Below, one piece after another: positions 1 through 41,717 of a stretch of 64,000 nt of DNA. Under the pieces are notes generated by a model. It did no database searches, was not told the DNA's origin, and saw only the letters and a list, made by a program, of their open reading frames with translations. Source of the stretch: Kutzneria chonburiensis (GTDB lineage: Bacteria; Actinomycetota; Actinomycetes; Mycobacteriales; Pseudonocardiaceae); contig NZ_CP097263.1 in the NCBI RefSeq assembly GCF_028622115.1, positions 5,208,001 through 5,272,000 of the forward strand. Reading direction: 5' to 3'. How positions within the stretch are numbered: position 1 is the first letter of the stretch; every line of letters begins with the position of its first letter. Position numbers and translations under genes: made by a program.

Positions 1-707
1 CCCAGGCGGCGCTGGACAAGGCCGCCGGCCTGCCGGTCGGCGACGAGGGGCCGGAGATCTTCACCCGGGCGATCCAGGCCAATGTCGGCATCGGTGTCGG
101 CATCGTGCTGTTCGGCGTGGCCATGGGCGCGTTCTTCGCCGTGGCCTACGCGGTCTGCCTCGGCCGGGTCGGCAACCTGCGGCCCCGCACGCTGTCGGTG
201 CTGGTGGCCGGCGGCGGCTTCCTCGGCATCTACCTGGTGCCGTTCGTGAAGTACCCGGCCAACCCGCCGTCGATCGGCCACGGTGCGACCATCGGCGTCC
301 GCGGCGCGCTGTACGTGGTGATGATGGTCTGCTCGGTGGCGTTCCTGATCGGGGCCGTGGTGCTGGGCAAACGGTTGGCCCGGCGCTTCGGCAACTGGAA
401 CGCGACATTGCTAGCGGCGCTAGCTTTCGTCGTGGTGATCGGTGTCGTCATGGCGCTGTTGCCGTCGCTGGGCGAGCTCGCCGCCAACGTGCGCGACTAC
501 GGCGAGCAGGCCACCGAGACGCCACAGCCGCTGCGCAATCCCGCCGGGCAGATCGTCTATCCCGGCTTCCCGGCCGATGTGCTGTGGGACTTCCGCTTCT
601 ACTCGATCGCCGCGCAGGCGATCATGTGGGCGGCGATCGGCCTGCTGTTCGCGCCGTTGGCCGAGCGGCTGTTGGCCCCCAAGGCCGAGCAGGTGGCGGC
701 GTCCTGA
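1..707 (+). CDS. cbtA: CbtA family cobalt transporter subunit, 5' end cut by window
   Basis: Reading frame 3 is open from the first base of the window to TGA at 705-707, so the N-terminus lies upstream. Several hydrophobic segments are visible (around 85-165, 195-245, 310-350, 395-470 and 600-655), joined by short polar loops. The order of segments, the PAN-PP-IGH loop near 260-280 and the C-terminal FYSIAAQ segment resemble the CbtA family, predicted cobalt importers regulated by B12 riboswitches. The partner CbtB and any cobalamin riboswitch would be upstream, outside the window. The next gene overlaps the stop by four bases, which suggests translational coupling. A CTAG palindrome lies at 410-424 within the Leu-Ala-Ala-Leu-Ala stretch. 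The family is recognised from memory of its sequence pattern; cobalt as substrate is inferred from the family. Confidence 0.8.
   Translation, partial: QAALDKAAGLPVGDEGPEIFTRAIQANVGIGVGIVLFGVAMGAFFAVAYAVCLGRVGNLRPRTLSVLVAGGGFLGIYLVPFVKYPANPPSIGHGATIGVRGALYVVMMVCSVAFLIGAVVLGKRLARRFGNWNATLLAALAFVVVIGVVMALLPSLGELAANVRDYGEQATETPQPLRNPAGQIVYPGFPADVLWDFRFYSIAAQAIMWAAIGLLFAPLAERLLAPKAEQVAAS
410..424. repeat. CTAG palindrome copy 1 (in cbtA)
   Basis: The sequence is GCTAGCGGCGCTAGC. It forms two in-phase CTA leucine codons within Leu-Ala-Ala-Leu-Ala. It is one of six copies of SCTAGC-N3-GCTAGS in the window. Confidence 0.75.
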
Positions 708-1254
708 ACCGGCTTTTCCTGGTCTGTCACGGCGCCACCGAGGCCGTACGGCAGGCTCGCTTTCCCGCCGACGAGCCGTTGTCGCGACGGCCGGCGGCGT
801 TGGCCGGACCGGCCCGTTTGGACGGTCTCAGCCGGGGCCGGAGCTGCGCTGCGCGCAGACCGCTGAGGCCCTCGGCTGGGACGCCGTCGTCGACGAGTCC
901 CTCGCCGATCTCGATCACGGCTCGTGGCGCGGCCGGTCCTTGGCCGAGATCGACCAGCACGACCTGTCGGCATGGATGACCGATCCCGACGCCGCCCCGC
1001 ATGGCGGCGAGCCCGTCAGTGCCGTGCTCAAGCGCGTCGCCTCGTGGCTGGACCGCCAGGCCGACGTCGGCCGCGTCGGCGTCGTCACCTCGCCGTCCGT
1101 GATCCGGGCGGCAGTCCTAGCGACGCTAGGCGCCCCCGCCGCCGCATTCTGGCGGGTCGACATCTCACCGCTGACCGTCACGCAGCTCACCGGCACCACC
1201 GGCCGATGGACCGTCCGCGAGACCGGGCTTCCGCTCCAGGAAGCCGGGGGCTAG
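704..1254 (+). pseudogene. Histidine phosphatase family protein, frameshifted
   Basis: The N-terminal part (RLFLVCHGATEA then FPADEPL) reads in frame 2 from about 704. The C-terminal part (PELRCAQTAEALG to the TAG at 1252-1254) reads in frame 1. The switch lies between about 785 and 838. One missing base would restore a 183-residue protein, a normal length for the family. The start would be CTG in a CTGA overlap with the cbtA stop, where ATGA would be usual. The RHG phosphohistidine motif reads CHG. Degenerate RHG motifs may occur in relatives beside cbtA, so that change alone does not prove loss of function. Phosphatases of this type often accompany cbtA, where a role in cobalamin metabolism is presumed. 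A CTAG palindrome lies at 1116-1130. Confidence 0.7.
1116..1130. repeat. CTAG palindrome copy 2 (in phosphatase)
   Basis: The sequence is CCTAGCGACGCTAGG. It supplies both CTA codons of the Leu-Ala-Thr-Leu-Gly stretch of the frameshifted phosphatase. Confidence 0.75.
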
Positions 1255-1279
1255 CCGGACCACGTCCGCCCACCTACAC

Positions 1280-1293
1280 TGCAAACGTTTCCA
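1280..1293. promoter_or_regulatory. LacI-family operator upstream of alpha-galactosidase
   Basis: TGCAAACGTTTCCA fits the general LacI/GalR operator pattern TGNAANCGNTTNCA, with a perfect AAACGTTT core. It lies 44 bp before the GTG start of the GH27 gene. Repression by a sugar-responsive LacI protein is inferred. No lacI gene adjoins it; those in the window are at 29899-30903 and 44986-46011. Confidence 0.65.
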
Positions 1294-1337
1294 GCTTGTT
1301 GCAGCGCCGCCGCCGCACTACCTGGTAGGAGGGTGTT

Positions 1338-2654
1338 GTGCGTCGGTGGGCAGTGGGGCTAGCGGTGCTAGGACTTCTAGCGGTGACACCGGTGGCGAAC
1401 GCGGAGGACAACGGGCTGGCCAAGAAGCCGCCCATGGGGTGGAGCAGCTGGAGCTTCGTGCGGAAGGCGCCGTCCGCCGCCAAGATCGAGGCGCAGGCCG
1501 ATGCGATCAAGAGCTCGGGGCTGGCGCAGCACGGGTTTGAGTACGTCAACCTGGACGACTTCTGGATGAAGTGCGACGGGAACGGGCCGACCGTGGACGC
1601 GAACGGGCGGTGGGTGGTCGACACGGCGAAGTTCCCGGACGGGATGAAGGCGGTGGCGGATCACGTCCACGCTGACGGGCTGAAGTTCGGGCTGTACGTG
1701 ACGCCGGGCATCCCGGAGAACGCGGTGAGGAACAACAGCGCGATCGCGGGAACGGCATACCACGCCAAGGACATCGCGGTCACCACGACGTCGGAGAAGA
1801 ACTACAACTGCAAGCACATGTACGGGATCGACTACAGCAAGCCCGGTGCGCAGCAGTACATCGACTCCTGGGCGAAGGAGTTCGCGGACTGGGGCGTGGA
1901 CTACCTGAAGATCGACGGGGTTGGCAGCCCGGACATCCCGGACGTCAAGGCGTGGTCGCAGGCCCTGCGGAACTCGGGTAGGCCGATCCACTACGAGCTG
2001 TCCAACAACCTGGCGATCGCGGACGCGAACACGTGGCGGCAGTACGCGAACGGCTGGCGGACGCAGGGCGACGTGGAATGCTACTGCGGCGCAAATGGGG
2101 CAAGTTTTCCTTTGACGGACTGGAAACACGTGTCAGCGAGGTTCGACACGGCGGCGAGCTGGCAGCAGTACGCCGGGCCGGGCGGCTGGAACGACCTGGA
2201 CTCGCTGGAGATCGGCAACGGCGACAACACCGGTCTGACCAGCGACCAGCGCCGCAGTCACCTGACGCTGTGGGCGATGGCGGCGGCGCCGCTGCTGCTG
2301 GGCACGGATCTGACCCACCTGGACGCGACCGACAAGGCGATGCTGACCAACGACTCCGTGCTGGGCGTCGACCAGGACGCGATCGCCGCGAAGCGCCTGA
2401 CCAAGTCGGGCAACACCCAGGTGTGGACCAAGAAGGAGCCCTCCGGCGCCTACGTCGTGGCCCTGTTCAACACCGGGACCAGCGGCAGCCAGACGATCAC
2501 CGTGGACTGGCAGCAGGTGGGCATCACCACGGGCGCGGCCGCGGTCACGGATCTCTGGGCGCAGAAGGCCAAGGGCACGATCAAGGGCAGCTACAGCGCG
2601 ACGCTGCGCCCGGGCGAGACGCGGCTCATCCGGGCGGTGCCGGCGAATTCCTGA
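1338..2654 (+). CDS. Secreted alpha-galactosidase, GH27 family
   Basis: The 438-residue product starts at GTG, preceded by GGAGG about 6 bases upstream. It has a Sec signal peptide (residues 1-22, ending ANA-ED). The start of the mature part, PPMGWSSWS, is the GH27 N-terminal hallmark. The barrel runs to about residue 330, with the probable nucleophile Asp193 in YLKIDG and the probable acid/base Asp245 in WRTQGD. The motif GGWNDLD follows. A beta-sandwich C-terminal domain (GH27 C-terminal type) occupies about 345-438. It would hydrolyse terminal alpha-galactosides outside the cell. A short AT-richer patch at 2090-2130 lies in the barrel without disrupting the frame. A LacI-type operator precedes the gene. 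Related GH27 enzymes include isomaltodextranases and arabinopyranosidases, so exact substrate is inferred. Confidence 0.88.
   Translation: MRRWAVGLAVLGLLAVTPVANAEDNGLAKKPPMGWSSWSFVRKAPSAAKIEAQADAIKSSGLAQHGFEYVNLDDFWMKCDGNGPTVDANGRWVVDTAKFPDGMKAVADHVHADGLKFGLYVTPGIPENAVRNNSAIAGTAYHAKDIAVTTTSEKNYNCKHMYGIDYSKPGAQQYIDSWAKEFADWGVDYLKIDGVGSPDIPDVKAWSQALRNSGRPIHYELSNNLAIADANTWRQYANGWRTQGDVECYCGANGASFPLTDWKHVSARFDTAASWQQYAGPGGWNDLDSLEIGNGDNTGLTSDQRRSHLTLWAMAAAPLLLGTDLTHLDATDKAMLTNDSVLGVDQDAIAAKRLTKSGNTQVWTKKEPSGAYVVALFNTGTSGSQTITVDWQQVGITTGAAAVTDLWAQKAKGTIKGSYSATLRPGETRLIRAVPANS
1358..1372. repeat. CTAG palindrome copy 3 (in GH27 signal peptide)
   Basis: The sequence is GCTAGCGGTGCTAGG, giving Leu-Ala-Val-Leu-Gly with two CTA codons. 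A further half site, CTAGCGGT, follows at 1377. Confidence 0.75.
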
Positions 2655-2677
2655 CGCAGAGCTGGGGACCGGATCAG

Positions 2678-2710
2678 GTCGGCCACCGTGTGCAGGGCGC
2701 GGTGGCCGAC
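2678..2710 (+). terminator. Hairpin after alpha-galactosidase
   Basis: A perfect 11-bp stem (GTCGGCCACCG with its complement) encloses an 11-base loop 24 bp after the stop codon. There is no U tract, as is common in actinomycetes. Confidence 0.6.
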
Positions 2711-2880
2711 CGCCGGATACCGGCGCCGTGGGGTGGGCGGGTGGGGAAGAGGATGAGCCGGGCGGCACCGGCGGCACGGTCGAAGGCGGCCGCAGTCCGA
2801 GTGGGCGGACGCCAGGGAAGTGGCCGCCGGCGCCACAGAGGTGCGGCGGCGCGGGCAGGTAGAGAACAGGTGGCAGCGGG

Positions 2881-3125
2881 ATAAAGCGCGACGACACCGG
2901 CAGGTGAGGCGGGCGGCGGGATCGAAGGGCGGCAGCGCGGGTGGGTGGCGCGGGCGGCGGCAGAACCGAAGAGCAGCGACACCGATAGGCAGAACGGGCG
3001 GCGGCGGGACCGAAGAGCAGCGACACCGATAGGCAGAGCGCGCGGCGGCGGGACCGAAGAGCAGCGGCACCGATAGGCAGAGCGCGCGGCGGCGGGATCG
3101 AAGGGCGGCGGCGCGGGTGGGGTGG
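2881..3125. repeat. Degenerate 44-bp tandem repeat
   Basis: The core CCGAAGAGCAGCGACACCGA recurs with starts at about 2922, 2966, 3010, 3054 and 3098, a constant 44-bp period. A more diverged unit starts near 2881. The central copies are almost identical and the edge copies are worn. The array fills most of the 484-bp gap between the convergent GH27 and MFS genes. As 44 is not a multiple of three, no repeat protein is implied. I see no gene in this gap. Confidence 0.85.
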
Positions 3126-3138
3126 GGAGGGCGTGGCG

Positions 3139-4434
3139 CTAGAGGGCGGCGGTGGGGGTGGGCGGGGTGGGTTGCAGGTGAACTGCCTCTGGGGGCGGGG
3201 CTACGGGGCGCAGAGTGGTGCCCATGCAGGCCATGAGCAACGGCAAGGCGGCGAAGCCTACGACCAGGCCGAGGGCGGTGAAAGACCAGGTGCTCATGAT
3301 GACTCCGGCGAGGAGGCCGCCGGAGGCGCCGCCGAGGTTGAGGACGAGGTCGGCGAGGCCCTGGGTGGAAGGGCGGAGGGCCACGGGGACGGACTCGGTC
3401 AGCAACGCGCCCCCGGCTACTACGCCGGCGGACCAACCGCAGCCGAGCATGATCATGCCGAGGGCCATCTGGGGCGCATCGTGGGAAGAAGCCATGCCGC
3501 AGACGCCGGCGCCGGCTACGACGAGGGCGGCGCCGAGGGCGAGTACGGGGACGCGGCCGATGCGGTCGGCCAGAACGCCGAAAAGGGGGCTGGCGGCGTA
3601 CATGCCGGCTACGTGAACGCTGACGACCATGCCGACGACGACAAGGGTGGAACCGCCGCCGGTCATCTGGACGGGCATCATCGACATCATGCCGGTCATC
3701 GCGGTGTTGCACAGGGCAACACCTAGCAGTGCTAGGCGGACGTTCGGACCGATCGCCGACCAGACCTCGGCCCGGGTGTGCCGGCGGGGCAGCTCGGAAG
3801 CCCCTACGCCGCAACAACTGTCGCCGACGACCACGGCGACTCGACCGGCCAGCAAGGGATCCGGTCGCAGGCCGAAGAGCAGGCCGATACCGGCAACGGT
3901 GAAAGCTAGCGACGCTAGCAAAAAGGGTGACGGTACGACGGCGGCCAGGTTGGGTGCCGCGATCACGCCTAGCGTCGTCGCCCAGACCACTGTGGACATT
4001 GCGCCGGCCCGACGGCCGGGATGGGCCAGGTCCCCGGCGGCGTACCGAGCGGCCAAGGTCGCCGCGGTGCCGCCGCCGAAGGCCACCAACGACAACAGCA
4101 AAAACGGCCACGAGCCGACAGCCGACGCGAAAGCGCAACCAACGCCGCCCAACGCCCCGACCCCGTACGCCGAGGCCAACGCCCGACGCCGCCCGAACCG
4201 ACCGGCGACCAACGCCACCGGCACGGCCGACAACGCCGCCCCGACGGCGATCGCCGTCGCCCCCAACCCGCCGACGGCCACCGAGCCGGACAGCGTCGTC
4301 GCCGTCAAGGCGCCGAGCATGATGCCGATCCCCACGCCGATCGACCCGACGGCCTGGGTGCCGACAAGGAATCCGATGACCCTGCGCTGCGCGGGATGGC
4401 GGTCCACCATTCGATCGTCACACGCCGCGACCAT
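3139..4434 (-). CDS. MFS transporter
   Basis: The product has 431 residues with about 12 hydrophobic segments and a basic loop between segments 2 and 3 (GRFGRRR), as in the major facilitator superfamily. A second, similar motif, GVLADRIGR, opens the C-terminal half and reflects the internal duplication of the fold. The middle loop (about residues 205-235) is polar and contains CCGV. The substrate cannot be told from sequence; drug-efflux-type MFS proteins look like this. The start is uncertain: ATG at 4434 or ATG at 4410, neither with a clear ribosome binding site. The Hsp70-like gene lies 16 bp upstream on the same strand, so cotranscription is likely. Two CTAG palindromes lie in its membrane segments. 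Confidence 0.85.
   Translation of the reverse strand: MVAACDDRMVDRHPAQRRVIGFLVGTQAVGSIGVGIGIMLGALTATTLSGSVAVGGLGATAIAVGAALSAVPVALVAGRFGRRRALASAYGVGALGGVGCAFASAVGSWPFLLLSLVAFGGGTAATLAARYAAGDLAHPGRRAGAMSTVVWATTLGVIAAPNLAAVVPSPFLLASLAFTVAGIGLLFGLRPDPLLAGRVAVVVGDSCCGVGASELPRRHTRAEVWSAIGPNVRLALLGVALCNTAMTGMMSMMPVQMTGGGSTLVVVGMVVSVHVAGMYAASPLFGVLADRIGRVPVLALGAALVVAGAGVCGMASSHDAPQMALGMIMLGCGWSAGVVAGGALLTESVPVALRPSTQGLADLVLNLGGASGGLLAGVIMSTWSFTALGLVVGFAALPLLMACMGTTLRPVAPPPEAVHLQPTPPTPTAAL
3722..3736. repeat. CTAG palindrome copy 4 (in MFS gene)
   Basis: The sequence is CCTAGCAGTGCTAGG. On the coding (minus) strand it reads Leu-Ala-Leu-Leu-Gly with two CTA codons. Confidence 0.75.
3905..3919. repeat. 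CTAG palindrome copy 5 (in MFS gene)
   Basis: The sequence is GCTAGCGACGCTAGC. On the minus strand it reads Leu-Ala-Ser-Leu-Ala with two CTA codons. A half site, CCTAGCGTCG, lies at 3968. Confidence 0.75.
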
Positions 4435-4450
4435 CGCCGTAGACGTCCGA

Positions 4451-6187
4451 TCAGGTGCCGGGCTGTACCGAATGCTCGAACGTCTCCGCCGCCTTGGCTG
4501 CGGTCAGTGAGCTCGGGTCAGCAGTGGCCGGCGCGGTGAGCACGCCGACGAGCGGCCGGTCCGACACCGTGAACGCGACGACGCCGACGCCGCTGACGCC
4601 AACCGACCAGTACTCGCCGCGCAGGCCATTGCCCGCCCACAGCGCACGGATCGTGGTGGCGTTGGTGTAGCCGCCGATCAGATCATGCACCTTCGTGTCC
4701 CTCTCCTCGAGCGAAGCCGTCTGGGTATAGACCACGGTCCGCCCGTCGATGTGACACGTGACGCTGGCCAACCCGGTCACCGCGACCCCGCTGCCGTCGT
4801 ACCCGGCCTGGCAGTCGCCCTGGTCGGCGACGGGTCCGGCGAGCTGGCGGGTGCAGTTGGTGAAGCCCTTGCCGTCGGGCGATCCGGGCGTGCCGCTGCA
4901 GTCGGCGGCGCTGGGGAACCGCGACGGGCTGGCCACCAGGAAGCCGCCGAGCACGACAAGAGCCACCAGGACGATTGCGCCCAACGCCACCATCGTCGCT
5001 TTCGATGCGCCCTTGGAGGCGGGCGCCGGCGCGGGCCCGGCCAGCTGCGGGAACTGGGCACCGGCCATGAAGTCGCCGGTGGTCGGGTACCGCGGCGAAG
5101 AAGGTGCCGAAACCTGAGTCCTGATCGTCACGCCGTCCCGCGGCACGAGATGCGCGCCCGACGCGACGGCCGTCTCCGGCTGGTCCAGGCTGACCGGGGC
5201 AACCCGCAGCCGCTCCCCGATCAACGCGCCCACCAACGGCATCCGGCTCGCCCCACCGACCAGGTAGATGCCGGCCAACGACATCGGGTGCACGCCACTG
5301 GCGGCGATGGTCGACGACAGCAGCTCGATGCTGCGCGTGAGGCTGGGCCGGATCAGCGCCTCCAGCTCCGGCCGGGTGACCGTCACGTCGGCGAACGGCT
5401 CCGGCATCGGCACCACGGTCTGCGGGTGCCGCGACAGCGCCTCCTTGGCCGCCCGCACGTCCTCGACCAGCGCCCGCTGGGCCCGACGGTCGGCAGTGGA
5501 CTCGGGCCGAAGCAACTGCTGCCACCGAGCGGCGTCGCGGTTGGACACCTGCCGGCCGACGTACTCCAACAGCAGCTGGTCCATGTCGGTGCCGCCGAGA
5601 TCGGCCAGGCCGTCCGAGGCCTGCACGGTGAACCCGCCGGGCGTCGCGGCGACCACGGCGACGTCGAACGTGCCGGAACCGAGGTCGTAGACGGCGAGCG
5701 AGCTGCCCGGGGCGAGGCGGTTGAAGTGCGCGGCGGCGGCGACCGGCTCGGGGACCATCACGATGTTGCCGGTCATCCCGGCGAGCCGCCCGGCCGACAT
5801 GAGGGTGTTGCGCCGCGCGGCGCCCCAGTTGGCGGGGTGGGTGAGCCGGAACTCGTCCGGCAGCGCGCCGCCGAGCTGGCGCACGGTCTCGTCGAGCACC
5901 CGCCGCAGCACGGCCGCGAGCGCGTCGGTGACCGGGACGACGCTGCCGCCGAGCAGCAGAGCGCCGTCGTCGATGCGGCGCTTCGGCGTGGGCTCGAAGC
6001 GCGTGGGGTCCATCCGGGCCTGCCGCTCGGCGTCCCGGCCGACGAGGATCACGCCGTCCTCGTCGGCGTAGACAGCCGACGGCATGGTGGCCGCGCCGTC
6101 GACCTCGACGACGCGGGGTTGCTGGCCGGGCACCGCGAGCACCGCCACCGTGTTCGACGTCCCCACGTCGATCGACAACACCCGCAC
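4451..6187 (-). CDS. Membrane-anchored Hsp70/DnaK-like protein
   Basis: The chosen GTG start at 6187 follows AAGGGGG with 6-base spacing; the upstream in-frame extension has no such site. The N-terminal half is an actin-fold ATPase: phosphate loop 1 IDVGTSNT, phosphate loop 2 YDLGSGTFDVAV and the adenosine motif VGGASRMP. The Hsp70 substrate-binding domain is absent. Instead, near residues 390-425, there is a proline-rich linker and one hydrophobic helix (MVALGAIVLVALVVLGGFLV). A C-terminal domain of about 150 residues follows with four cysteines, probably outside the membrane and disulphide-bonded. This is a transmembrane sensor-like layout rather than a housekeeping chaperone; client and function are unknown. 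It lies between the sigma-factor and MFS genes on the same strand. Confidence 0.85.
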   Translation of the reverse strand: MRVLSIDVGTSNTVAVLAVPGQQPRVVEVDGAATMPSAVYADEDGVILVGRDAERQARMDPTRFEPTPKRRIDDGALLLGGSVVPVTDALAAVLRRVLDETVRQLGGALPDEFRLTHPANWGAARRNTLMSAGRLAGMTGNIVMVPEPVAAAAHFNRLAPGSSLAVYDLGSGTFDVAVVAATPGGFTVQASDGLADLGGTDMDQLLLEYVGRQVSNRDAARWQQLLRPESTADRRAQRALVEDVRAAKEALSRHPQTVVPMPEPFADVTVTRPELEALIRPSLTRSIELLSSTIAASGVHPMSLAGIYLVGGASRMPLVGALIGERLRVAPVSLDQPETAVASGAHLVPRDGVTIRTQVSAPSSPRYPTTGDFMAGAQFPQLAGPAPAPASKGASKATMVALGAIVLVALVVLGGFLVASPSRFPSAADCSGTPGSPDGKGFTNCTRQLAGPVADQGDCQAGYDGSGVAVTGLASVTCHIDGRTVVYTQTASLEERDTKVHDLIGGYTNATTIRALWAGNGLRGEYWSVGVSGVGVVAFTVSDRPLVGVLTAPATADPSSLTAAKAAETFEHSVQPGT

Positions 6188-6270
6188 GCGTGCCCCCTTG
6201 CTCTGGCTTCGCGCAGATGCTGCCACACGGATCGATGCTCAGCGCACCGGTTGACCAAGCCCGTCACGAA

Positions 6271-6303
6271 CCCGATGGGATGACACTCCCTCACCCCATC
6301 GGG
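6271..6303 (-). terminator. Hairpin after sigma-factor gene
   Basis: CCCGATGGG and CCCATCGGG form a 9-bp stem around a 15-base loop, starting 11 bp past the sigma-factor stop codon. It may separate that gene from the Hsp70-like gene. Confidence 0.55.
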
Positions 6304-6313
6304 GGCCCGACCT

Positions 6314-6949
6314 TCAGAACTCCTTCGTGCTGCCGACCAGCTTGCGCAGCCTGGTCAGCGCCCGGTGCTGAGCCACCCGAACCGCACCCGGGGTGGACCC
6401 GACCAGGTCGGCGGTCTCCTCGGCGGACAGGCCGACGACCACCCGCAGCACCACGATCTCGCGCTGCTTGTCGGACAGGACCGCGAGCAGCCTGTCCATG
6501 TTGCTCTTCAACTCGTCCTGCAGCACCCGCTGCTCCGGGCCGGCGACCGTCTCCGGCCGGTCCGGCACCTCGGGCACCGGCAGCGACTTGTTGCGGGCCG
6601 CCGCCCGGTGGGCGTCGGCGACCTTGTGCTGCGCGATGCCGTACACGAAGGCCAGGAACGGCTGACCCTGGTCCCGATAGGACGGCAACGCCGAGATGAC
6701 CGACAGGCAGACCTCCTGCACCACGTCGTCCGCCGAGGCGAACGAGCGGTCCAGCCGGCCGATCCGGGCCCGGCAGTACCGCAGCACGATCGGCCTGATC
6801 GATTCGAGAACCCGTTGCGTGGCAACCGGATCACGGTTGACCGCGGCATCGACGAGCTGCCGGAACTGCTCGTCCTGCGGACCGTAGGCGGCGACCGGCT
6901 TCGGCGCGACCTCGGCCCCCACAGGCAGAACCTGTGCCAAGTTATTCAT
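6314..6949 (-). CDS. shbA: ShbA/SigD-type RNA polymerase sigma factor
   Basis: The 211-residue product starts at ATG 6949 after GGGGAC; a 30-codon in-frame extension upstream looks non-coding. Region 2 contains RYCRARIG, the ASADDVVQEVCL stretch and SYRDQGQPFLAFVYGIAQHKV. Region 4 contains LSDKQREIVVLRVVVGLSAEETADLVGSTPGAVRVAQHRAL with its helix-turn-helix. These stretches match the ShbA (Streptomyces) and SigD (Mycobacterium) group, which has no standard N-terminal anti-sigma-binding domain. In Streptomyces griseus ShbA drives transcription of the principal sigma gene hrdB; the same role here is inference. No anti-sigma gene adjoins. A long non-coding leader lies upstream (6950-7614). Confidence 0.85.
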   Translation of the reverse strand: MNNLAQVLPVGAEVAPKPVAAYGPQDEQFRQLVDAAVNRDPVATQRVLESIRPIVLRYCRARIGRLDRSFASADDVVQEVCLSVISALPSYRDQGQPFLAFVYGIAQHKVADAHRAAARNKSLPVPEVPDRPETVAGPEQRVLQDELKSNMDRLLAVLSDKQREIVVLRVVVGLSAEETADLVGSTPGAVRVAQHRALTRLRKLVGSTKEF

Positions 6950-7614
6950 CTGTCCCCGCACGTGAAATTGGGTGATGATCCGACCTTCGACGGAGAATCG
7001 ACGTCGAATCAAGTTGCGTACTGCGTCAGTGCACCCCACGCGCCGGTGAAATCAGGCCGTCTCCGCCGTGGCCGACGACCCGAACACCCCCGACACCCCT
7101 TGCCCCGTGCTGTCACGCTCGTTCGGTGCCATTCCCAGAGCCCCGATCGGGCGTTACGCGTCCGGTCGTCGTCCCACCGACTTCCTTGGCGCACCGATGA
7201 CGCTAACGCTGCGTGGCTGGCCTCACAAGCACCCTGGGAAACTTTCCAGGAATGGATCCGCACTGGTGAACACGCCACTACCGACCGTGAGGAGTACGCA
7301 GTCTTCGGCCGGTCGGTCCAGGGTGGCTCGTGCAGACACACCAGAAAAACGTGCACCGAGCCGCCGTCGGACACTCCCGCTTACCAGGGAGAACACGAAA
7401 CGCAACCGTGACCTTGGCACTGAGCAACCCGGACGGACACGCTCCGGTCACAACCGTCCGTTGTCGTCACAACCACCCACCAGCGTTACGCGTTCGGTCG
7501 AACACCGGCCGTAGTCCAACCAGTAAATAGGCATAGAAAAGCCTTTCTGCCTACTCATTGGTAATCAATAATCGGCAGCATTGCCCACTCTTACTCCTTC
7601 GATCGAGTGACAAC
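6950..7614. other. 665-bp stretch without a convincing gene
   Basis: This is the upstream region of the sigma-factor gene. Open frames here lack actinobacterial third-position GC bias and resemble no family. The 18-mer GCGTTACGCGTYCGGTCG occurs at 7151-7168 and 7483-7500 with one variable base. The stretch 7510-7590 is unusually AT-rich and may hold promoters. Nothing else is recognised. Confidence 0.6.
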
Positions 7615-7650
7615 GAAGGGCCCATTCCCCGCGCGAGGAATGGGCCCTTC
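7615..7650 (-). terminator. Strong hairpin after chitinase gene
   Basis: A perfect 14-bp stem (GAAGGGCCCATTCC and its complement) encloses an 8-base loop about 50 bp beyond the chitinase stop codon. It is symmetrical enough to act in both directions. Confidence 0.8.
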
Positions 7651-7700
7651 TCAACAGTCGACACCAGATACGCGTTACCGCCAGTACGGTGTCGAATGTG

Positions 7701-9529: not shown

Positions 9530-14079
<4,550 letters not shown>

Positions 14080-32671: not shown

Positions 32672-32706
32672 GGAATGTGTCCTGGACCACGACGGTTGGA
32701 GCAGGC

Positions 32707-33117: not shown

Positions 33118-33121
33118 CGCG

Positions 33122-33956: not shown

Positions 33957-35269
33957 CAGCTCCCAGCGCCCGTCGAGTTACTCGACGGTAACATACGCCG
34001 GAGCCGTTTCAGGTCGGCCAGGTACTCCTGGAAGTCCACCTCGATCGTGTGACGCTTGGAGGCCACGTAGCGGCGGCGCATCCGCTCCCGGTAGCGGTGG
34101 ATCTCGCGGCGCATCTCGGCTGCCGGCGGCAGCGTGGCCGTGCCCTCGATCAGGTCGGCGATCCAGTGGGCCTGAGCCTCGGCCAGCGGCATGATCGCGC
34201 CGAGCGGCTGGATCAGGCCGAGGAAGTACAGCCCGGGCCGGTCGACCGGCACCACCCGGTGATACAGCTCCACCTCGTTGTCGGCCGTGGCCATGACGTC
34301 GTCGGCCAGGAACGGGAAAGTGATGCGGTAACCGGTGCAGTAGATGACGGCGTCGACTTCTTCCCTGCTGCCGTCGGTGAAAACGACCGTCGAGCCGTCG
34401 AATTGAGCAATGTTCGGTTTCACCGTGACATCGCCGTGGCCGACGCGGGTGAGAATGTCGTCGGACACGGTCGGATGGGCGGCCAGCACCTTGTGATCCG
34501 GCGCGGGCAGACCGTATTTGGTCACGCTGCCACGCGTCAAAGCGAGCATTGCTTGCATGGAAAGCCGTTGCAGCCACAGCGGTCCACGGGCCAGCGGTGA
34601 GGTCGTCAGGTGATCGGTCGGAATGCCGAACAGGAACTTGGGCAGCACGTGGGCGCTGCGGCGCATGGCCAGGAACGTGCGATCGGCGACGCGGGAGAGT
34701 TCGACCGCGATGTCGCAGGCCGAATTGCCGATGCCCAGCACGACAACACGTTTGCCCACGTACGGATCGAAGGTCTTGTAGTAGTGGGAATGCACGCGCT
34801 CACCGGTGAACTCGCCCGGGAATTCCGGCTCCCGCGGATCCCAGTGGTGCCCGTTGGCCACGATCACCGAGCGGTAGCGCAGGGTTCGTTCCTCGCCGTC
34901 GGCCTTGATCGTCACGTCGTAAGCGCCATCCTTGGGGACGACGGCCGTGACCTCGGTGCGGAAGGCGATCTTGTCGCGGAGCCCGAAGTGGTCCACGAAA
35001 TCGTCGAAGTACCGCGCGATCTGGAAGTGGTTGGGGTACGCCGGCAGCCCCGGCGGCATGGGGTAGCTGGCGTACTCCATCTGCCGGGTGGAGGTGTTGA
35101 TGTGCAGCGACCGGTAGGCCGACGACATGCCGTTGTCGTTGAGGTACCGCCAGTTGCCGCCGACCTGCGATCCCGCCTCGTAGCAGTCGAAGTCGATGCC
35201 GCGCGCCTGCAACACCTGGGCCGCCGCGATGCCGGACGAGCCGGCACCGATCACGCACACCTCGGCCAT
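33956..35269 (-). CDS. Flavin-containing monooxygenase
   Basis: The 437-residue product starts at ATG 35269 after GAGGGGAG. It carries the FAD motif VIGAGSSGIAAAQVL and the NADPH motif VVLGIGNSACDIAVELS. Between them are the FMO stretches VGGNWRY, and later CTGYRITFPFL (ATGY-type). It uses NADPH and oxygen to oxidise a soft nucleophile or ketone; the substrate is unknown. Gene order (mpaB-like, tetR, this, crotonase) suggests oxidation of a lipid, terpenoid or steroid-like compound. Baeyer-Villiger activity is possible. Confidence 0.88.
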   Translation of the reverse strand: MAEVCVIGAGSSGIAAAQVLQARGIDFDCYEAGSQVGGNWRYLNDNGMSSAYRSLHINTSTRQMEYASYPMPPGLPAYPNHFQIARYFDDFVDHFGLRDKIAFRTEVTAVVPKDGAYDVTIKADGEERTLRYRSVIVANGHHWDPREPEFPGEFTGERVHSHYYKTFDPYVGKRVVVLGIGNSACDIAVELSRVADRTFLAMRRSAHVLPKFLFGIPTDHLTTSPLARGPLWLQRLSMQAMLALTRGSVTKYGLPAPDHKVLAAHPTVSDDILTRVGHGDVTVKPNIAQFDGSTVVFTDGSREEVDAVIYCTGYRITFPFLADDVMATADNEVELYHRVVPVDRPGLYFLGLIQPLGAIMPLAEAQAHWIADLIEGTATLPPAAEMRREIHRYRERMRRRYVASKRHTIEVDFQEYLADLKRLRRMLPSSNSTGAGS

Positions 35270-35328
35270 GGCCACTCCCCTCGTTCGCGCCCACCTTGGC
35301 ATTCGGGGCGCGGCGGCACCAGATCCGA

Positions 35329-35886
35329 TCAGGACATCAGCGGTACCAGGTAGCCGCGGGCGAAGTCCCGGACGGCGTCGTCATCGGCCACGGCGATCGA
35401 GCCGTCCGGCGTGAGCGTGAAGGAAATCGCCAGCCGTACCAGCATTTCCGCCAGCACGTGGGGATCGCGGGTCATGGTCCCGCCGACCTCCGCGTACTGC
35501 GACACCAGGAACTCGCTGGCCGCGGCGATCACGCCCGCGCCGCGCAGCGTCAGGTACGGCACCAGTTCCTCGGGATCGCTGACCAGCAGCCGGGTCAGCA
35601 GGGCGTCGGTGCGAACCTTGCGCAGCCCCACCACGAATCCCTCGACCAGTCGTTCCTCGGCCGTCGGCAGCGGCCCGATGGCCGCGACGATCTCGCCGAA
35701 GAACCGGGCACTCTCCCGTACCAAAGCCGCTTGGACCAGCACGTTCTTGCTCTCGAACCGCCGGTAGACGGTGGCCCTGGACAGGCCGGCGCGGCGGGCC
35801 ACGTTGTCCACGCTGGTGCGCTTCAAGCCGTAGTCACGCAGTTCGTCGACGGCCGCGTCGAGGATCAGGTCGTCGTCAACCGGCAC
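35329..35886 (-). CDS. TetR-family transcriptional regulator
   Basis: The 185-residue product starts at GTG 35886, overlapping the MpaB gene end by 11 bases. The N-terminal helix-turn-helix is KRTSVDNVARRAGLSRATVYRRFESKNVLV; the C-terminal helical domain has no named family. It lies inside the operon it most likely controls. The palindrome at 36781-36796, between this operon and the acyl-CoA ligase gene, is the probable operator. Confidence 0.87.
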   Translation of the reverse strand: MPVDDDLILDAAVDELRDYGLKRTSVDNVARRAGLSRATVYRRFESKNVLVQAALVRESARFFGEIVAAIGPLPTAEERLVEGFVVGLRKVRTDALLTRLLVSDPEELVPYLTLRGAGVIAAASEFLVSQYAEVGGTMTRDPHVLAEMLVRLAISFTLTPDGSIAVADDDAVRDFARGYLVPLMS

Positions 35887-36739
35887 CGGCGACCCGTTTC
35901 ATCGCCGCCCGGGAGCGGGGCGAGTAGCGCAGCCGGTACGGCACCAGCGGCCACAGCAGGTGCACGATCCGGGCGAAGATCCGCAGCCGGCGCTCGTCCC
36001 GCTCGGTCCAGGTGGCGCCGATGCGCATCAGGATCGCCGGGTGCAGGGTGCCGCGGTTGACCCACCACAGGAACTTGCCGAACGGGCGTTTGACCAGGCG
36101 ATACAGCGGGGCCGGCACCAGCGGGAAGCGTTCCGGCGGTTGCTCGACGAAGGCCAGCAGCCCCTTGGCCACCGGCGTCACCTCCAGCCCCTCACGGCAC
36201 ATCCGGTCCAGATACCGCTGGTAGCCGGCCCAGTCGTCCGGGGCGAACCGGTCGCTGACGCCGTAGAGGCGGTAGCCGGCCAGGGTCTCGGCGTACAGCT
36301 GGGCCTTCTCGTCGTCGCTCAGCCGGTGGTCGAACAGCTCGATCGCGCGGATCATCGTGTCGAAAATCGTGAGATGGGCCCAGAAATACGTCTCCGGGTC
36401 GAGCGCGTGATAGCGCCTGCCCTGCTCGTCGGTGCCCTTGATGTCGAGGTGATAGGCGGTGATCTGTTCGGCCGTCCGGCGCGCGTCCGGCCAGTCGAAG
36501 GTGACGCCCTGTATCTGCGGCACCGAGCGGATGATCCGTTCCCACGGCTCGCCGAAGAAGTCGGAATGATCTTTCACCCCGGCGCCGAGGCCGGGATGCA
36601 TGAGCTGGAGCAGGCCGACCCGTACGAGCAGCATCAGCACCCGGTTGTCACCGGCGTGGCGCCAGTGCAGCGAGCCCGGTCCGGCCAGGTCCATGGCCGC
36701 CTCCCGAAACGGTGAGACGATTTCTTCTCTTTGTATCAC
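35876..36739 (-). CDS. Oxygenase MpaB family protein (DUF2236)
   Basis: From GTG 36739 the product has 287 residues. ATG 36694, with GGGAGG six bases before it, is an equally plausible start and would remove 15 residues. GPGSLHWRHAGDNRVLMLLVRVGLLQLMHPGLGAGV, then ALDPETYFWAHLTIFDTM with its conserved His and Asp, are the DUF2236 marks. MpaB of Penicillium and Lcp rubber oxygenases share this heme-binding fold and cleave double bonds. Members are often encoded near lipid or terpene catabolism genes in actinobacteria. It is the first gene of the four-gene operon. Confidence 0.83.
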   Translation of the reverse strand: MIQREEIVSPFREAAMDLAGPGSLHWRHAGDNRVLMLLVRVGLLQLMHPGLGAGVKDHSDFFGEPWERIIRSVPQIQGVTFDWPDARRTAEQITAYHLDIKGTDEQGRRYHALDPETYFWAHLTIFDTMIRAIELFDHRLSDDEKAQLYAETLAGYRLYGVSDRFAPDDWAGYQRYLDRMCREGLEVTPVAKGLLAFVEQPPERFPLVPAPLYRLVKRPFGKFLWWVNRGTLHPAILMRIGATWTERDERRLRIFARIVHLLWPLVPYRLRYSPRSRAAMKRVAGAG

Positions 36740-36780
36740 CGCGACCGGTCGGCCACCAGCCCCGCGGCACTCGGACGCGT

Positions 36781-36796
36781 TGATTGGCACCAATCA
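36781..36796. promoter_or_regulatory. Candidate TetR operator in divergent promoter
   Basis: TGATTGG-CA-CCAATCA is a perfect 7-bp dyad in an otherwise GC-rich stretch, between the MpaB/TetR operon and the acyl-CoA ligase gene. Binding by the TetR encoded at 35329-35886 is inferred from position only. Confidence 0.6.
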
Positions 36797-36864
36797 GGGG
36801 AGCTGTTAGCGTCAACGCGATTGCGCTTGGGGGAGGCGAACGGGATCGGGGGTCGAGGACCGAT

Positions 36865-38610
36865 ATGAGCACGCTGTGCGCCGTGTTCCAGGCGACGGCG
36901 GCCAAGCATCCCGACCTGGTGGCGCTGCGCACCCCGGCCGACGCGGTCACCGTCACCTGGCGCGAGTACGCCGACCGGGTGCGGCACATCGCCGCCGGAT
37001 TGGCCTCGCTCGGCGTGCGCCGTGGCGACACCGTCGCCCTCATGATGGTCAACCGCCCCGAGTTCCACCTGGTCGACACGGCCGTGTTCCACCTCGGCGC
37101 CACCCCGTTCTCGCTGTACAACACCTCGTCTCCGGAGCAGATCCAGTTCCTGGTCGGCAACGCCGGCAACCGCGTGGTGATCTGCGAGGAGCAGTTCCTG
37201 CCCGCCGTGCTGGCCGGCCGTGACGGCACGGCGGTCGAACACGTGGTCTGCGTGGACGCTGCCCCTTCCGGCACCATCGGCTTGGCCTCGCTCGAGACGC
37301 GGACGCCCGACGACTTCGACTTCGAGGCCACCTGGCGGGCCGTCGAACCTGACGACGTGTTGACGTTGATCTACACGTCCGGGACGACCGGGCCGCCCAA
37401 AGGGGTGGAGCTCAGCCACCGGAACATGATCGCGGCGGTGTCCGCGGCCGAGTCCGTGCTGCCGGCCGACCACAACGACCGGATCATCTCGTTCCTGCCC
37501 CACGCGCACGTCGCCGACCGTTGGGGCACCCATTACACGCAGATCGTCACCGGTCTCCAGGTGACGTGCGTGGCCAACCGCCGCGCCGTGCTGGCCGCCC
37601 TGGTGGAATGCCGCCCGACGATCTTCGGTGCCGTGCCTCAGGTTTGGTACAACATCCGGGCCGGGGTCGAGGCGATGATCGCCGGCGAGGTCAACCAGGC
37701 CCGCAAGGCGGCGTTGACCCAGGCCGTCCGCCTAGGACTCGATTTCGTGCGTACCGAGAACCCCGACGAGCAGTTGCGGGCTCGCTACCGTGCCGCCGAC
37801 GAGCGCACCCTTGCCCCGTTGCGGGCGATGATCGGCTTCGACCAGATCCGTTACGCCCTCTGCGGTGCCGCCCCCATCACCGCCGACGCCGTCGAGTTCA
37901 TCAATGCCATCGGCATTCCCTTGTCCGAGGGTTGGGGCATGTCCGAGGTCTGCGGCCTTGCGACCTTGAATCCCCCGCACGCCAACCGTTTCGGCACCTG
38001 CGGCCCCGCCATTCCCGGCGTCGAGCTCCGCCTCGGCGACGAGAACGAACTCCTCGTCCGCGGCGCCCTGGTGATGAAGGGCTACCGCGGCGCCGTCACC
38101 CATGCCGCCGCCACCCTCGACTCCGACGGCTGGCTCCACACCGGCGACGTGGCGACCATGGACCCCGACGGTTACGTCCGCATCATCGACCGCAAGAAGG
38201 AGTTGATCATCAACTCCAGCGGCAAGAACATGTCGCCCAGCACCATCGAGAACACCATCAAGGCCGGTTGCCCCCTCATCGGCCAGCTCGTCGTCATCGG
38301 CGACGCCCGCCCGTACAACGTCGCCCTGGTGTTGTTGGAACCCGAGGTGCTCAAGGGCTTCGCCGCCGGCCACGCCCTCGACGCCGACCTTCCGTCCCTG
38401 GCCGCCCACCCCGACGTCCGCCAGGCCATCGCCGACGGCATCGACGCCGGCAACCAGCGCCTGTCCCGGGTCGAGCAGGTCAAGCGCTTCGCCATCCTGC
38501 CGACCTGGTGGGAGCCCGGCTGCCCCGAGCTCACCCACACCTTGAAGCTACGCAGGGGTCCCATCGCCGAGCGCTACGCCACGGAGATCGAGTCCCTCTA
38601 CACCAAGTGA
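36865..38610 (+). CDS. AMP-dependent acyl-CoA ligase (FadD type)
   Basis: The 581-residue product starts at ATG 36865 after GAGGA. The adenylation signature LIYTSGTTGPPKGVELSHRN (about residues 170-189) is intact. GWGMSEVCGLATLN, the TGD motif (HTGDVATMDPDGYVRIIDRKKELI) and the C-terminal catalytic lysine region (LTHTLKLRRG) follow. The long form with an FIRSVPQ-like loop (TIFGAVPQVWYNI) is typical of bacterial long-chain fatty acid ligases. It faces away from the MpaB operon across a shared promoter region, so coregulation is likely. Confidence 0.92.
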   Translation: MSTLCAVFQATAAKHPDLVALRTPADAVTVTWREYADRVRHIAAGLASLGVRRGDTVALMMVNRPEFHLVDTAVFHLGATPFSLYNTSSPEQIQFLVGNAGNRVVICEEQFLPAVLAGRDGTAVEHVVCVDAAPSGTIGLASLETRTPDDFDFEATWRAVEPDDVLTLIYTSGTTGPPKGVELSHRNMIAAVSAAESVLPADHNDRIISFLPHAHVADRWGTHYTQIVTGLQVTCVANRRAVLAALVECRPTIFGAVPQVWYNIRAGVEAMIAGEVNQARKAALTQAVRLGLDFVRTENPDEQLRARYRAADERTLAPLRAMIGFDQIRYALCGAAPITADAVEFINAIGIPLSEGWGMSEVCGLATLNPPHANRFGTCGPAIPGVELRLGDENELLVRGALVMKGYRGAVTHAAATLDSDGWLHTGDVATMDPDGYVRIIDRKKELIINSSGKNMSPSTIENTIKAGCPLIGQLVVIGDARPYNVALVLLEPEVLKGFAAGHALDADLPSLAAHPDVRQAIADGIDAGNQRLSRVEQVKRFAILPTWWEPGCPELTHTLKLRRGPIAERYATEIESLYTK

Positions 38611-38659
38611 CCCGTCCACCAGCTTCACCCACCCCCTCCGCCACTGAACCGATCCGGAA

Positions 38660-38716
38660 ATGCAGGGAAGGACGCCTTACCTGCATCCAACGCAGGTAAG
38701 GCGTCCTTCCCTGCAT
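38660..38716. terminator. 25-bp perfect hairpin, dispersed-repeat type
   Basis: Two perfectly complementary 25-base arms (38660-38684 and 38692-38716) with a 7-base loop lie between the convergent ligase and GH38 genes. The arms contain GCAGGGAAGG. The layout repeats that of 18690-18742, again at a convergent gene end. Confidence 0.85.
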
Positions 38717-38720
38717 CACA

Positions 38721-41717
38721 TCAGCGGGTGAAGCGCAGGGTCAGGACCTGGAAGGGGCGGAGCTCGATGTCGACGGCGTTGTCGGTCAACGCGCGGTCGG
38801 CCAGGTGTCGCTCCAACAGGTCGGTCTCCTGCACGGCGGAAACCGGGAAAGACGGGGTGACGACGGCACGAGCCCGGCCGCCGAGGGACTCGTAGAGACG
38901 GACGACGATGTCGCCGGAGCGGTCGTCGGCGGCCTTGACGGCCTCGATGACGATGCCGGGATCGGACACGGTGAAGACGGGGGCGACCGGGGAGCCGACG
39001 GCGCGGCGCTCGGGCAGGTTGATGCGGTAGCCCTCACGGACGGCGTCGGCGATGGTGGCGCCGGGGACGATGGAGTAGTTGAGCGTGTGAATGCCCTGGT
39101 CGGTCAAAGGATCGGGGAAACGCGGGGCGCGGAGTAGGGACAGGCGGACCGTGGTGGTGGTGCCGCCGGAAGACCGGGCCTTGCGGGTGATGTCGTGGCC
39201 ATAGGTGGAGTCGTTGACGACGGCGAAGCCGTAGCCGGGCTCGGCGACGTGCACCCACCGGTGTGCGCAGATCTCGAACTTGGCGGCGTCCCACGACGTG
39301 TTGACGTGGGTCGGCCGGTGCAGGTGCCCGAACTGGATCTCCGAGGTGGAACGGTCGGCATGCACGTCAACCGGGAAGGCGACCTTGAGGAACTTCTCGA
39401 CTTCCTGCCAGTCGACCTCGGTGGACACGTCGAGACGACGCTCGCCGGCCCGCAGCCGCAACACCTGGGTGAGCGTGGAATCCCCGAAAGTGCGCCGGAC
39501 CCGGATGGCGCCGACGTCCTTGCCCTCGTCGACGGCGACGACCTCATCGGCCTCGACCAGGTCACGGACATTGTTGCGGTAGAACGGATCCACGTCCCAA
39601 GCATCCCACTGGTTGGGGACGTCGACGTGCAGCTGCAACAGGTTGCCGACGGCCCCGGGGGCCAACACCTCGCGGTCGGCGACCAGGTCACGCAACGAGG
39701 TGATGAGGCCACGCGAGTCGACGGTCACCCGGAGCAAACCGTTGTCCAGCACCAGATCCTCGACGGACACCGGCTGCGCGGAACCGGAGTCCGTTGCCCC
39801 GGCGCCGAGTCCGGGCACGCCGGAGCGGGAGTGCGGGGCGGCGTTGAAGACGACGGTCTCGGAGCCCTCGCCGGCCAACGCCGACAGCGCCGAAGAGATC
39901 AGGGATTCCAGTTCAAGAGCCACCTCGGCGTACCGGGCCTCGGCCTCGCGGTGCACCCACGCGATCGAACTGCCGGGCAGGATGTCGTGGAACTGGTGCA
40001 GCAGCACGGTTTTCCACAACCGGTCGAGCTGCTCATAGGGGTAGTCAAAGCCCTGCAACAACGCGGCCGTGGCCCACAGCTCGGCCTCACGCAGCAGGTG
40101 CTCGCTACGACGGTTGCCCTGCTTGGTCCGAGCCTGCGTGGTGTACGTGGCCCGGTGCTTCTCCAGGTACAGCTCCCCCGACCACACCGGGGCGTCCTCG
40201 TACTCTGCCTCGGCCGCGGCGAAGAACTTCGACGGGGCCTCGATCGTCACCCGCGGCGAGCCCTCGAGATCGGCGGACCGACGGGCGGTTTCCAACATCT
40301 CCCGGGTGGGACCGCCGCCGCCGTCGCCGTAACCGAACGGCACCAACGACCGGGTGGCCTTGCCGTGCTCGGCGTACTGCCGGCTGGCCCGGGCCAGGTC
40401 GGCCCCGAGCAGGTCGGAGTTGTACGTGTCGACCGGCGGGAAGTGGGTGAACACCTGCGATCCGTCGATGCCCTCCCAGTAGAAGCTGTGGTGCGGGAAC
40501 CGGTTGATCTGGTTCCACGACAGCTTCTGGGTGAGGAACCACCGCGACCCGGACAGCTTCACCAGCTGCGGCATGGCCGCGCTGTAGCCGAACGAGTCGG
40601 GCAGCCACACCTCCTCGGTCTCGATGCCGAACTCGTCGAGGAAGAAGCGCTTGCCGTGGATGAACTGGCGGGCCATGGCCTCGCCGCCGGGCATGTTGGT
40701 GTCGGACTCCACCCACATGCCGCCGACCGGCACGAACTGACCCCTAGCAACGCTAGCTTTCACGCGTTCCCAGACGTCCGGGTGCTTCTCCTTCATCCAC
40801 GCGTACTGCTGGGCCTGCGAGCAGGCGAAGACGAACTCGGGGTACTCCTCCATCAACGCCGTCACGTTGGAGAACGTGCGGGCGCACTTGCGGACGGTCT
40901 CCCGCAGCGGCCACAGCCAGGCCGAGTCGATGTGGGCGTGGCCGGCGGCGGTGATCTGGTGCGCGCTGGCATTGGCCGGCTTCGACAGCACGTCGGCGAG
41001 CTCGGCGCGGGCCAGCCCGGCGGTGCCGGGGATGTCCTGGAAGTCGAGGCGGTCCAACGCCCGGTCCAGCGAACGCTGGATGTCCCAGCGCCGCGGCTCC
41101 CGCTCGTCGAGCTCGTTCTTGAGGCTGTTCAACACCTCGATGTCCAGCAGCAGGTCCCAGACGTCACGGTTGAACACGGCCAGCTCGGCGCGCACCACGT
41201 GGTAGATCGGCTCGGTGCCGGCCGTCTCCTTCAGGCCCAGCTCGGTCGGCTGGAACGGCACGAAGTCCAGGATCACCGGGTTGGCCGCGGCCTCGACGTA
41301 GAACAGCACGTCCTCGCCACCGGCCACCTCGACACCAACCGGCAGGTGGGTGCTGCGCGGGGCCAGGCCCTTGATCGGCTTGCCTTCCGGCGTGTACGCG
41401 AGGCCCTCGCACTGGAAACCCGGGCCGGGATGGGTGAATCCCAGGTCCACCACGGCTTCCACGTGCCGGCCGGCCCACTCCGCCGGCACGGTGCCGGACA
41501 TCCGGAACCAGCTGGTGGCCCACGGCGCGCCCCACGCGTCGCCGACCTTGGCCGGCTCGTACGTGGCGGCCAGCGCCTCGGCGACCGGCACCGGCTCGCC
41601 GGGCGCGTGCCAGACCTCCAGCGTCAGCGGCACGGCCGCGCCGTACACCTCCGGCCGGATGCGCTGGCGGACGGTCCTGGTCAGCCGCTCGTCGAGCAGG
41701 CTGCGGTCATCGTGCAT
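38721..41717 (-). CDS. Alpha-mannosidase, GH38 family
   Basis: The product has 998 residues. An N-terminal domain precedes the GH38 barrel at about 255. AGHAHIDSAWLWPLRETVRKCARTF carries the zinc ligands His and Asp. WLPDSFGYSAAMPQ carries the probable nucleophile Asp. The conserved middle domain and a large beta-rich C-terminal region follow. No signal peptide is seen, so it should act in the cytosol on imported manno-oligosaccharides. It lies 18 bp after the permease genes in one operon (SBP, two permeases, mannosidase), opposite a LacI regulator. A CTAG palindrome lies at 40743. Confidence 0.93.
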   Translation of the reverse strand: MHDDRSLLDERLTRTVRQRIRPEVYGAAVPLTLEVWHAPGEPVPVAEALAATYEPAKVGDAWGAPWATSWFRMSGTVPAEWAGRHVEAVVDLGFTHPGPGFQCEGLAYTPEGKPIKGLAPRSTHLPVGVEVAGGEDVLFYVEAAANPVILDFVPFQPTELGLKETAGTEPIYHVVRAELAVFNRDVWDLLLDIEVLNSLKNELDEREPRRWDIQRSLDRALDRLDFQDIPGTAGLARAELADVLSKPANASAHQITAAGHAHIDSAWLWPLRETVRKCARTFSNVTALMEEYPEFVFACSQAQQYAWMKEKHPDVWERVKASVARGQFVPVGGMWVESDTNMPGGEAMARQFIHGKRFFLDEFGIETEEVWLPDSFGYSAAMPQLVKLSGSRWFLTQKLSWNQINRFPHHSFYWEGIDGSQVFTHFPPVDTYNSDLLGADLARASRQYAEHGKATRSLVPFGYGDGGGGPTREMLETARRSADLEGSPRVTIEAPSKFFAAAEAEYEDAPVWSGELYLEKHRATYTTQARTKQGNRRSEHLLREAELWATAALLQGFDYPYEQLDRLWKTVLLHQFHDILPGSSIAWVHREAEARYAEVALELESLISSALSALAGEGSETVVFNAAPHSRSGVPGLGAGATDSGSAQPVSVEDLVLDNGLLRVTVDSRGLITSLRDLVADREVLAPGAVGNLLQLHVDVPNQWDAWDVDPFYRNNVRDLVEADEVVAVDEGKDVGAIRVRRTFGDSTLTQVLRLRAGERRLDVSTEVDWQEVEKFLKVAFPVDVHADRSTSEIQFGHLHRPTHVNTSWDAAKFEICAHRWVHVAEPGYGFAVVNDSTYGHDITRKARSSGGTTTTVRLSLLRAPRFPDPLTDQGIHTLNYSIVPGATIADAVREGYRINLPERRAVGSPVAPVFTVSDPGIVIEAVKAADDRSGDIVVRLYESLGGRARAVVTPSFPVSAVQETDLLERHLADRALTDNAVDIELRPFQVLTLRFTR
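40743..40757. repeat. CTAG palindrome copy 6 (in GH38 gene)
   Basis: The sequence is CCTAGCAACGCTAGC. On the minus strand it reads Ala-Ser-Val-Ala-Arg, a different codon phase from the other five copies, so it does not encode the Leu-Ala-x-Leu stretch. Confidence 0.75.

Follow-up and report, generated by a model that had tools for sequence, protein, structure and literature searches.

A palindromic DNA word recurring within genes of Kutzneria chonburiensis was characterised, starting from a 64,000-nucleotide stretch of its chromosome (contig NZ_CP097263.1, positions 5,208,001 to 5,272,000 of the forward strand), referred to here as the window. The word, CTAGC-RNY-GCTAG (R, purine; N, any base; Y, pyrimidine), is predicted with near certainty to be the operator of a TetR-family regulator carrying TetR_N and TetR_C_33 domains, and its gene-internal copies have very probably been selected as binding sites. 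In five of seven Kutzneria genomes a close orthologue of the regulator gene (tetR) adjoins a DUF4267-like gene, and extra copies of the word, mostly intragenic, form a halo within about ±65 kb of it. Comparison of these sequences suggests that the gene-internal copies may have a local job other than ordinary promoter control. The source genome is labelled G000, the other Kutzneria genomes G001 to G006, and relatives G035, G047, G132, G143, G167 and G231.

The original prediction described a palindrome, SCTAGC-N3-GCTAGS, repeated in a CTAG-poor window. All six copies were recovered at the coordinates given there, each within an open reading frame having a protein-family (Pfam) match, against none in 100 dinucleotide-preserving shuffles. 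They account for 12 of the 21 CTAGs in the window, as had been counted. CTAG is indeed avoided, to a lesser degree than the earlier base-composition estimate of about 160 sites implied, the dinucleotide-shuffle mean being 64.6 (about 3-fold avoidance). The outermost S positions did not prove constant, T or A standing there in other copies. A genome-wide count of CTAGCNNNGCTAG gave 49 copies in the 10.41-Mb single-contig genome, and since the centre was purine-N-pyrimidine in 49 of 49, the motif is CTAGC-RNY-GCTAG. About 61% of centres (0.095/0.155) would be RNY by codon shuffling; in the congeners the share was 19/22 in G001, 19/19 in G002, 8/8 in G003, 11/12 in G006 and 2/2 in G005. RNY describes the centre better than the purine-purine-pyrimidine first proposed, because a centre that is RRY on one strand becomes RYY when the opposite strand is read.

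The link to a regulator comes from sites in pairs. Pairs 51 bp apart were seen repeatedly in several genera, and most of those inspected separate a TetR-like gene from a small membrane-protein gene that runs divergently; among the inspected pairs, no tetR adjoined the one on contig C6 of G001 or one in G047. In the three regulators scanned with Pfam, TetR_N (PF00440) and TetR_C_33 (PF13305) were found above cut-off; the divergent partner is DUF4267, or Anthrone_oxy at a paralogous locus. The 250 bp upstream of the TetR match were then scanned for the best 80 of 488 confirmed relatives in named genomes. Among these best 80, CTAG-N5-CTAG was present upstream in 80/80, the full motif in 79/80 and two full copies in 58/80; the spacing of neighbouring upstream sites was 51 bp in 62/68, and the full sites at these loci had an RNY centre in 138/138. 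Across eight regulators, 23 of the 35 alignment columns 31-65 were invariant, compared with 40 of 159 elsewhere; the helix-turn-helix was placed within columns 31-65 by our own reading. A protein-binding site had been among the options of the original prediction, and a TetR operator is the form in which that option now appears. The regulator family is spread over many actinomycete genera. Because two copies stand 51 bp apart in the divergent promoter, ordinary autoregulation is very likely at tetR-DUF4267. The probable cognate regulator gene in G000 lies at 5147331-5147906, 60 kb left of the window and thus out of sight of the original prediction. A literature search, mostly of papers open without subscription, returned no report on operator strings, on TetR with DUF4267 or DUF1772, on a Kutzneria TetR palindrome, or on TetR decoy or intragenic sites of this kind, and nothing on this TetR_C_33 family.

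Copies within genes were compared with codon chance in a sample of the source genome consisting of 40 stretches of 20 kb (20 picked for sites, 20 outside) and the rest of the window, which together hold 250,807 codons in 734 called genes; the site-rich stretches were included in the shuffle data. In 200 synonymous-codon shuffles the mean number of coding copies was 0.095 and the maximum 1, against 33 observed. The coding count set against a codon-preserving shuffle, as proposed earlier, thus lay far above expectation and left the idea standing. Coding CTAG pairs were 9 bp apart in 35 cases and 6, 12 or 15 bp apart in none, and CTAG alone occurred 193 times in coding sequence against 232 under codon expectation. 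Of 43 sites in the sampled stretches, 33 fell in called genes, 28 of them in the phase CTA-GCR-NYG-CTA and five in another; among the ten outside called genes, the tetR promoter accounts for two, and another two (window 1117 and 1359) are in genes that the caller missed. Flanks of 42 sites were as unlike one another as random flanks (29% versus 30%). Sites with one mismatch numbered 7 in 120 kb of halo and 0 in 400 kb elsewhere. The 400 kb of control stretches were chosen with the full site list known, so that the absence of exact sites there only restates the list; the one-mismatch result and the codon shuffle are independent of how they were picked.

These figures bear on an alternative with several forms, in which the word would arise as an artefact of codon use or of a protein motif, serve in methylation or restriction, or be a mobile repeat. 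It could draw on the avoidance of CTAG in the genome, which resembles that of some restriction words, and on the 28 of 33 coding copies in a Leu-Ala-x-Leu phase. The codon shuffles together with the pair-spacing control rule out the codon-use and protein-motif forms, and 5/33 copies are in another phase. A methylation or restriction site, one of the roles first offered, would not account for the fixed place upstream of one tetR family, and the mobile oligonucleotide also offered is unlikely given flanks without likeness. Taken as a whole, this alternative is scarcely credible. The further comparison with HIP1 did not hold either. HIP1 of cyanobacteria is dense and genome-wide; the present word is likewise a palindrome in coding sequence beyond codon expectation, but has 49 copies in 10.4 Mb, and these are clustered.

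Conservation was assessed at the level of sites and of codons. The site comparison covered 63 sites in the halo stretches of five Kutzneria genomes, and exclusion of three tetR-promoter rows of 27 left 24 positions. Thirteen of these 24 are common to at least two species, and 11 occur in one species; these gains or losses, too, fall within the halo. Three positions are common to all five species, in a MocR-like gene, a response regulator gene and the histidine-phosphatase gene of the window. Species without a given site often carry CTG at the same leucine. In G001, the halo segments C3:155001-180000 and 200001-240000 lay outside this comparison and inside the codon comparison; the G004 and G005 regions, where the CbtA synteny probe matched at only 46% and 44%, lay outside. 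The codon comparison comprised 391 gene comparisons in 110 genes, limited to positions at which both genomes encode leucine, with one one-mismatch site included in the site class. CTA was retained in the orthologue in 56/86 comparisons within G000 sites versus 6/94 for other CTA codons (Fisher P 8.5e-18, a value that overstates independence because a small number of sites, in four genomes that are related, gave rise to all 86 comparisons). Retention of other leucine codons was 1680/2643 for CTC and 252/858 for TTG. Both the excess over codon shuffles and the presence of many copies in orthologues bear out the view that the DNA word is kept rather than the protein. As a separate observation, two sites stand 36 bp apart within a miaA-like gene (L020:16006 and 16042), both present in G002 and one in G006. 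The names MocR-like, response regulator and miaA, like scpA, scpB and SbcD below, come from our reading of the translations.

The clustering noted in the window is real, and it extends around tetR. In G000, 20 of 49 sites lie within 65 kb of tetR, two of them promoter sites, and five window copies are 60-64 kb from it. The halo holds 14/19 sites in G002, 7/8 in G003, 9/11 in G006 and, for part of its halo, 13/19 in G001; the two G006 sites outside make up the promoter pair belonging to a second TetR. For a test on groups, the promoter pairs (that of each genome and that of the second TetR of G006) were excluded, sites within 1 kb were merged, and radii of 65, 75 and 105 kb were tried; G001, in 70 contigs, was set aside, any site on a different contig was scored as lying outside, and some genome lengths were rounded. 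Within 65 kb were 11/39 non-promoter groups in G000, 9/13 in G002, 4/5 in G003 and 6/6 in G006, each with an expectation below 0.5. The gene-internal operators are so unlikely, so well conserved and so close about tetR that it is difficult to escape the conclusion that the DNA word is under selection.

What the gene-internal copies do is less certain, and we propose the following. The regulator would autoregulate through the paired operators in the divergent tetR-DUF4267 promoter, and would also bind the further operators at mostly synonymous positions in neighbouring genes over about ±65 kb. Bound copies could form a local nucleoprotein field, giving a high concentration of regulator at its own locus, and this field would perhaps fold or mark a stretch of about 130 kb instead of switching the promoter of each host gene. 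A local field of this kind, rather than per-gene regulation, is the reading we favour, at somewhat less than even confidence, because it explains the nearness to tetR, the indifference to position within genes, the conservation of the word and the turnover inside the halo.

Regulation gene by gene would make the intragenic sites roadblock or silencing sites for their host genes, and the halo an incidentally local regulon. Silencing from within genes is known of Lsr2-type silencers. The sites are under selection, some stand early in genes (for example 1358), and silencers, Lsr2 among them, have gene-internal sites in Streptomyces according to the available part of PMC6584129. Against this, the relative position of sites in host genes is uniform (mean 0.50, Kolmogorov-Smirnov P 0.62, n=33), and for that reason a promoter-proximal regulon is not favoured; the host genes are unrelated, unshared sites occur inside the same halo, and in G132, once the tetR promoter is set aside, four of the seven intergenic loci lie, by our reading, between convergent genes. 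Per-gene roadblocks would account for the conservation and not for the nearness to tetR, and we consider them a rather unlikely explanation. Less probable again is titration, in which the extra sites would be decoys buffering free regulator, with co-replication near tetR steadying the ratio of protein to sites. The indifference of the sites to host gene and in-gene position fits decoys well, as does the turnover of individual sites; but decoys should serve anywhere, so that the tight halo in G002, G003 and G006 needs the extra replication argument, and individual sites are conserved more than interchangeable decoys require.

The original prediction had asked for the word to be mapped relative to oriC and ter. 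The distance from dnaA to the halo was 2.20-2.31 Mb in each of four genomes that are 10.4-11.6 Mb long, and the halo therefore marks neither origin nor terminus. It could still be a chromosomal mark for a cell-cycle or segregation factor acting in nucleoid occlusion or anchoring, like SlmA or Noc. SlmA blocks the assembly of FtsZ, and its chromosomal sites, which are not tied to promoters, spare the terminus. It is a TetR-like, TetR-fold protein in the available text of PMC3573117, and SlmA entries are among the PDB matches of the regulator profile (E 1.7e-8); in addition, canonical Z-ring regulators are missing in Actinobacteria, as stated in the accessible part of PMC7118173. Many ordinary TetR proteins match equally well or better (best 3cjd, 6.1e-15), however, and the extract of PMC4331003 places SlmA sites over most of the chromosome, in a distribution similar to that of Noc sites, whereas the sites here are focal, as the group counts for G002, G003 and G006 illustrate. 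Presence of the halo in five of seven Kutzneria genomes also means that it is not essential to the genus, and a role of this type seems very improbable.

Several observations weigh against a local field. In G000, 29 of the 49 sites are outside the halo, and ten of the sites form a second, unexplained cluster at 8.72-8.93 Mb (G000:8724606-8926599, L025-L031), two of the ten being in very long genes (10.7 and >5.6 kb); a search at E 1e-25 found no close tetR paralogue there. The halo tests in related species are not mutually independent, given their common ancestry. G004 and G005 have no close tetR orthologue (best matches 49% and 53%) and carry 0 and 2 sites. In G005 the two sites form a pair at the promoter of that genome's tetR, which adjoins a DUF4267-like gene, and there is no halo; the halo is therefore not needed for the core regulation. 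At least one copy was counted in 229 of 390 genomes of the family and more than five in 24, and most motif-bearing relatives have 1-5 copies only and no halo. In G132, three of 12 groups are within 75 kb of tetR-DUF4267 and nine elsewhere (two of 12 within 65 kb; P 0.013, 0.001 and 0.003 at 65, 75 and 105 kb). G035 carries arrays at roughly eight places spread over six contigs, the palindromes recurring at 15- or 18-bp intervals. Its tetR promoter is one of these places, the gap that separates an scpA-like from an scpB-like gene is another, and a third lies between convergent genes.

The genomes with more than five copies include G000 (49), G035 (48), G132 (21), G143 (19), G167 (17) and G231 (11). 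G231, of another genus, has four sites at -9.4, +23.5, +30.9 and +37.7 kb from its tetR, in genes that differ from those of Kutzneria and all in CTA phase, and five further sites on other contigs. A broader reading is that a TetR-family protein organises about 130 kb round its own gene through operators in synonymous positions of unrelated neighbouring genes, in the manner of MatP and matS but with an ordinary repressor as the building block, and that such systems have arisen more than once in Pseudonocardiaceae-type actinomycetes, as the Kutzneria halo, the G231 halo and the dense arrays of G035 might indicate; this is speculative, and we think it rather improbable. Individual loci in these relatives are also worth recording. 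Four sites stand in one SbcD-like gene of G132 (L228:5659-5932), all in a non-CTA phase within a serine- and alanine-rich stretch. A perfect 18-base tandem array with six palindromes occupies the scpA-like/scpB-like gap of G035 (L182:8411-8513), and dense motif arrays at intervals of about 31-33 bp or 18 bp are present in another genus (G143:C1:134085-134527 and G167:C1:2113459-2113562).

Within the window, the first copy (410..424, +60.5 kb from tetR) is in the gene of CbtA, a probable cobalt transporter subunit, which is cut by the left end of the window (3..707, plus strand; Pfam PF09490, E 8.7e-58); the same site is present in G001 and G002, and G003 and G006 have CTG leucine codons. The second (1116..1130, +61.2 kb) is in an open frame at 442..1254, plus strand, with a histidine-phosphatase domain (PF00300, residues 133-260, E 4.8e-19), and is the one window site found in all five Kutzneria genomes with the tetR orthologue; the true start of this frame is probably later, because its upstream part overlaps the CbtA gene. 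The third (1358..1372, +61.4 kb) is near the start of an alpha-galactosidase-like gene (1338..2654, plus strand; PF16499, E 3e-40). Its register is unique to G000, a third CTAG follows 9 bp further on (1377-1380), and G001 and G006 carry a nearby site in the same protein stretch. The host genes of the second and third copies were missed by the gene caller and recovered as open frames. Two copies are in a major facilitator superfamily transporter gene (3139..4434, minus strand; PF07690, E 5.8e-28): that at 3722..3736 (+63.8 kb) is shared with G001 and G002 and absent from G003 and G006, and that at 3905..3919 (+64.0 kb) occurs in G000 only among the five compared. These five copies read CTA-GCR-NYG-CTA. 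The sixth, at 40743..40757 (+100.8 kb), reads GCT-AGC-GTT-GCT-AGG, so the difference in codon phase reported in the original prediction stands; it is in a glycoside hydrolase family 38 alpha-mannosidase gene (38721..41717, minus strand; PF01074, E 1.8e-97). That gene had no match in the congener stretches compared, nor do the complete lists of sites for G002, G003 and G006 contain one about 100 kb from tetR. Imperfect tandem-like repeats of about 48-50 bases (gaccgaagagcagcgacaccgataggcagag...) were also spotted by eye in a non-coding-looking stretch at 2880-3115.

Compared with known systems, the Kutzneria locus resembles TetR autoregulators in its TetR_N domain, its palindromic operator upstream of the regulator's own gene and its divergent partner gene, and differs in having many more operators within neighbouring genes, over a halo of about ±65 kb. 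The parS sites of ParB gather near parB, and many are within genes. Like ParB/parS and Noc with its binding sites (NBS; PMC4331003, as far as its available text goes), the present case pairs a site-specific protein, here a predicted one, with many scattered palindromic sites; unlike them, the scanned regulators have no ParB domain, and the halo is not origin-proximal. In the accessible passages of PMC6907758, matS is given as GTGACRNYGTCAC, with 23 copies at a spacing of about 35 kb in the terminus region of E. coli, and bridging between matS sites is described as disputed. The two systems share a 13-bp palindrome with an RNY centre and sites gathered in one region, a likeness of shape only: here the protein belongs to the TetR family, only TetR_N and TetR_C_33 and no MatP were found, and the sites surround tetR over a span of about 130 kb, away from the terminus.

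As a rule, bacterial transcription factors are assessed on the sites they occupy at promoters, and binding sites within genes are often dismissed as noise. The Kutzneria halo would provide a natural system that can be recoded, CTA to CTG with the protein unchanged, for the roles of sites outside promoters, namely local repressor concentration, folding and titration. For the TetR_C_33 family of many actinomycete genera, the word assigns a probable operator.

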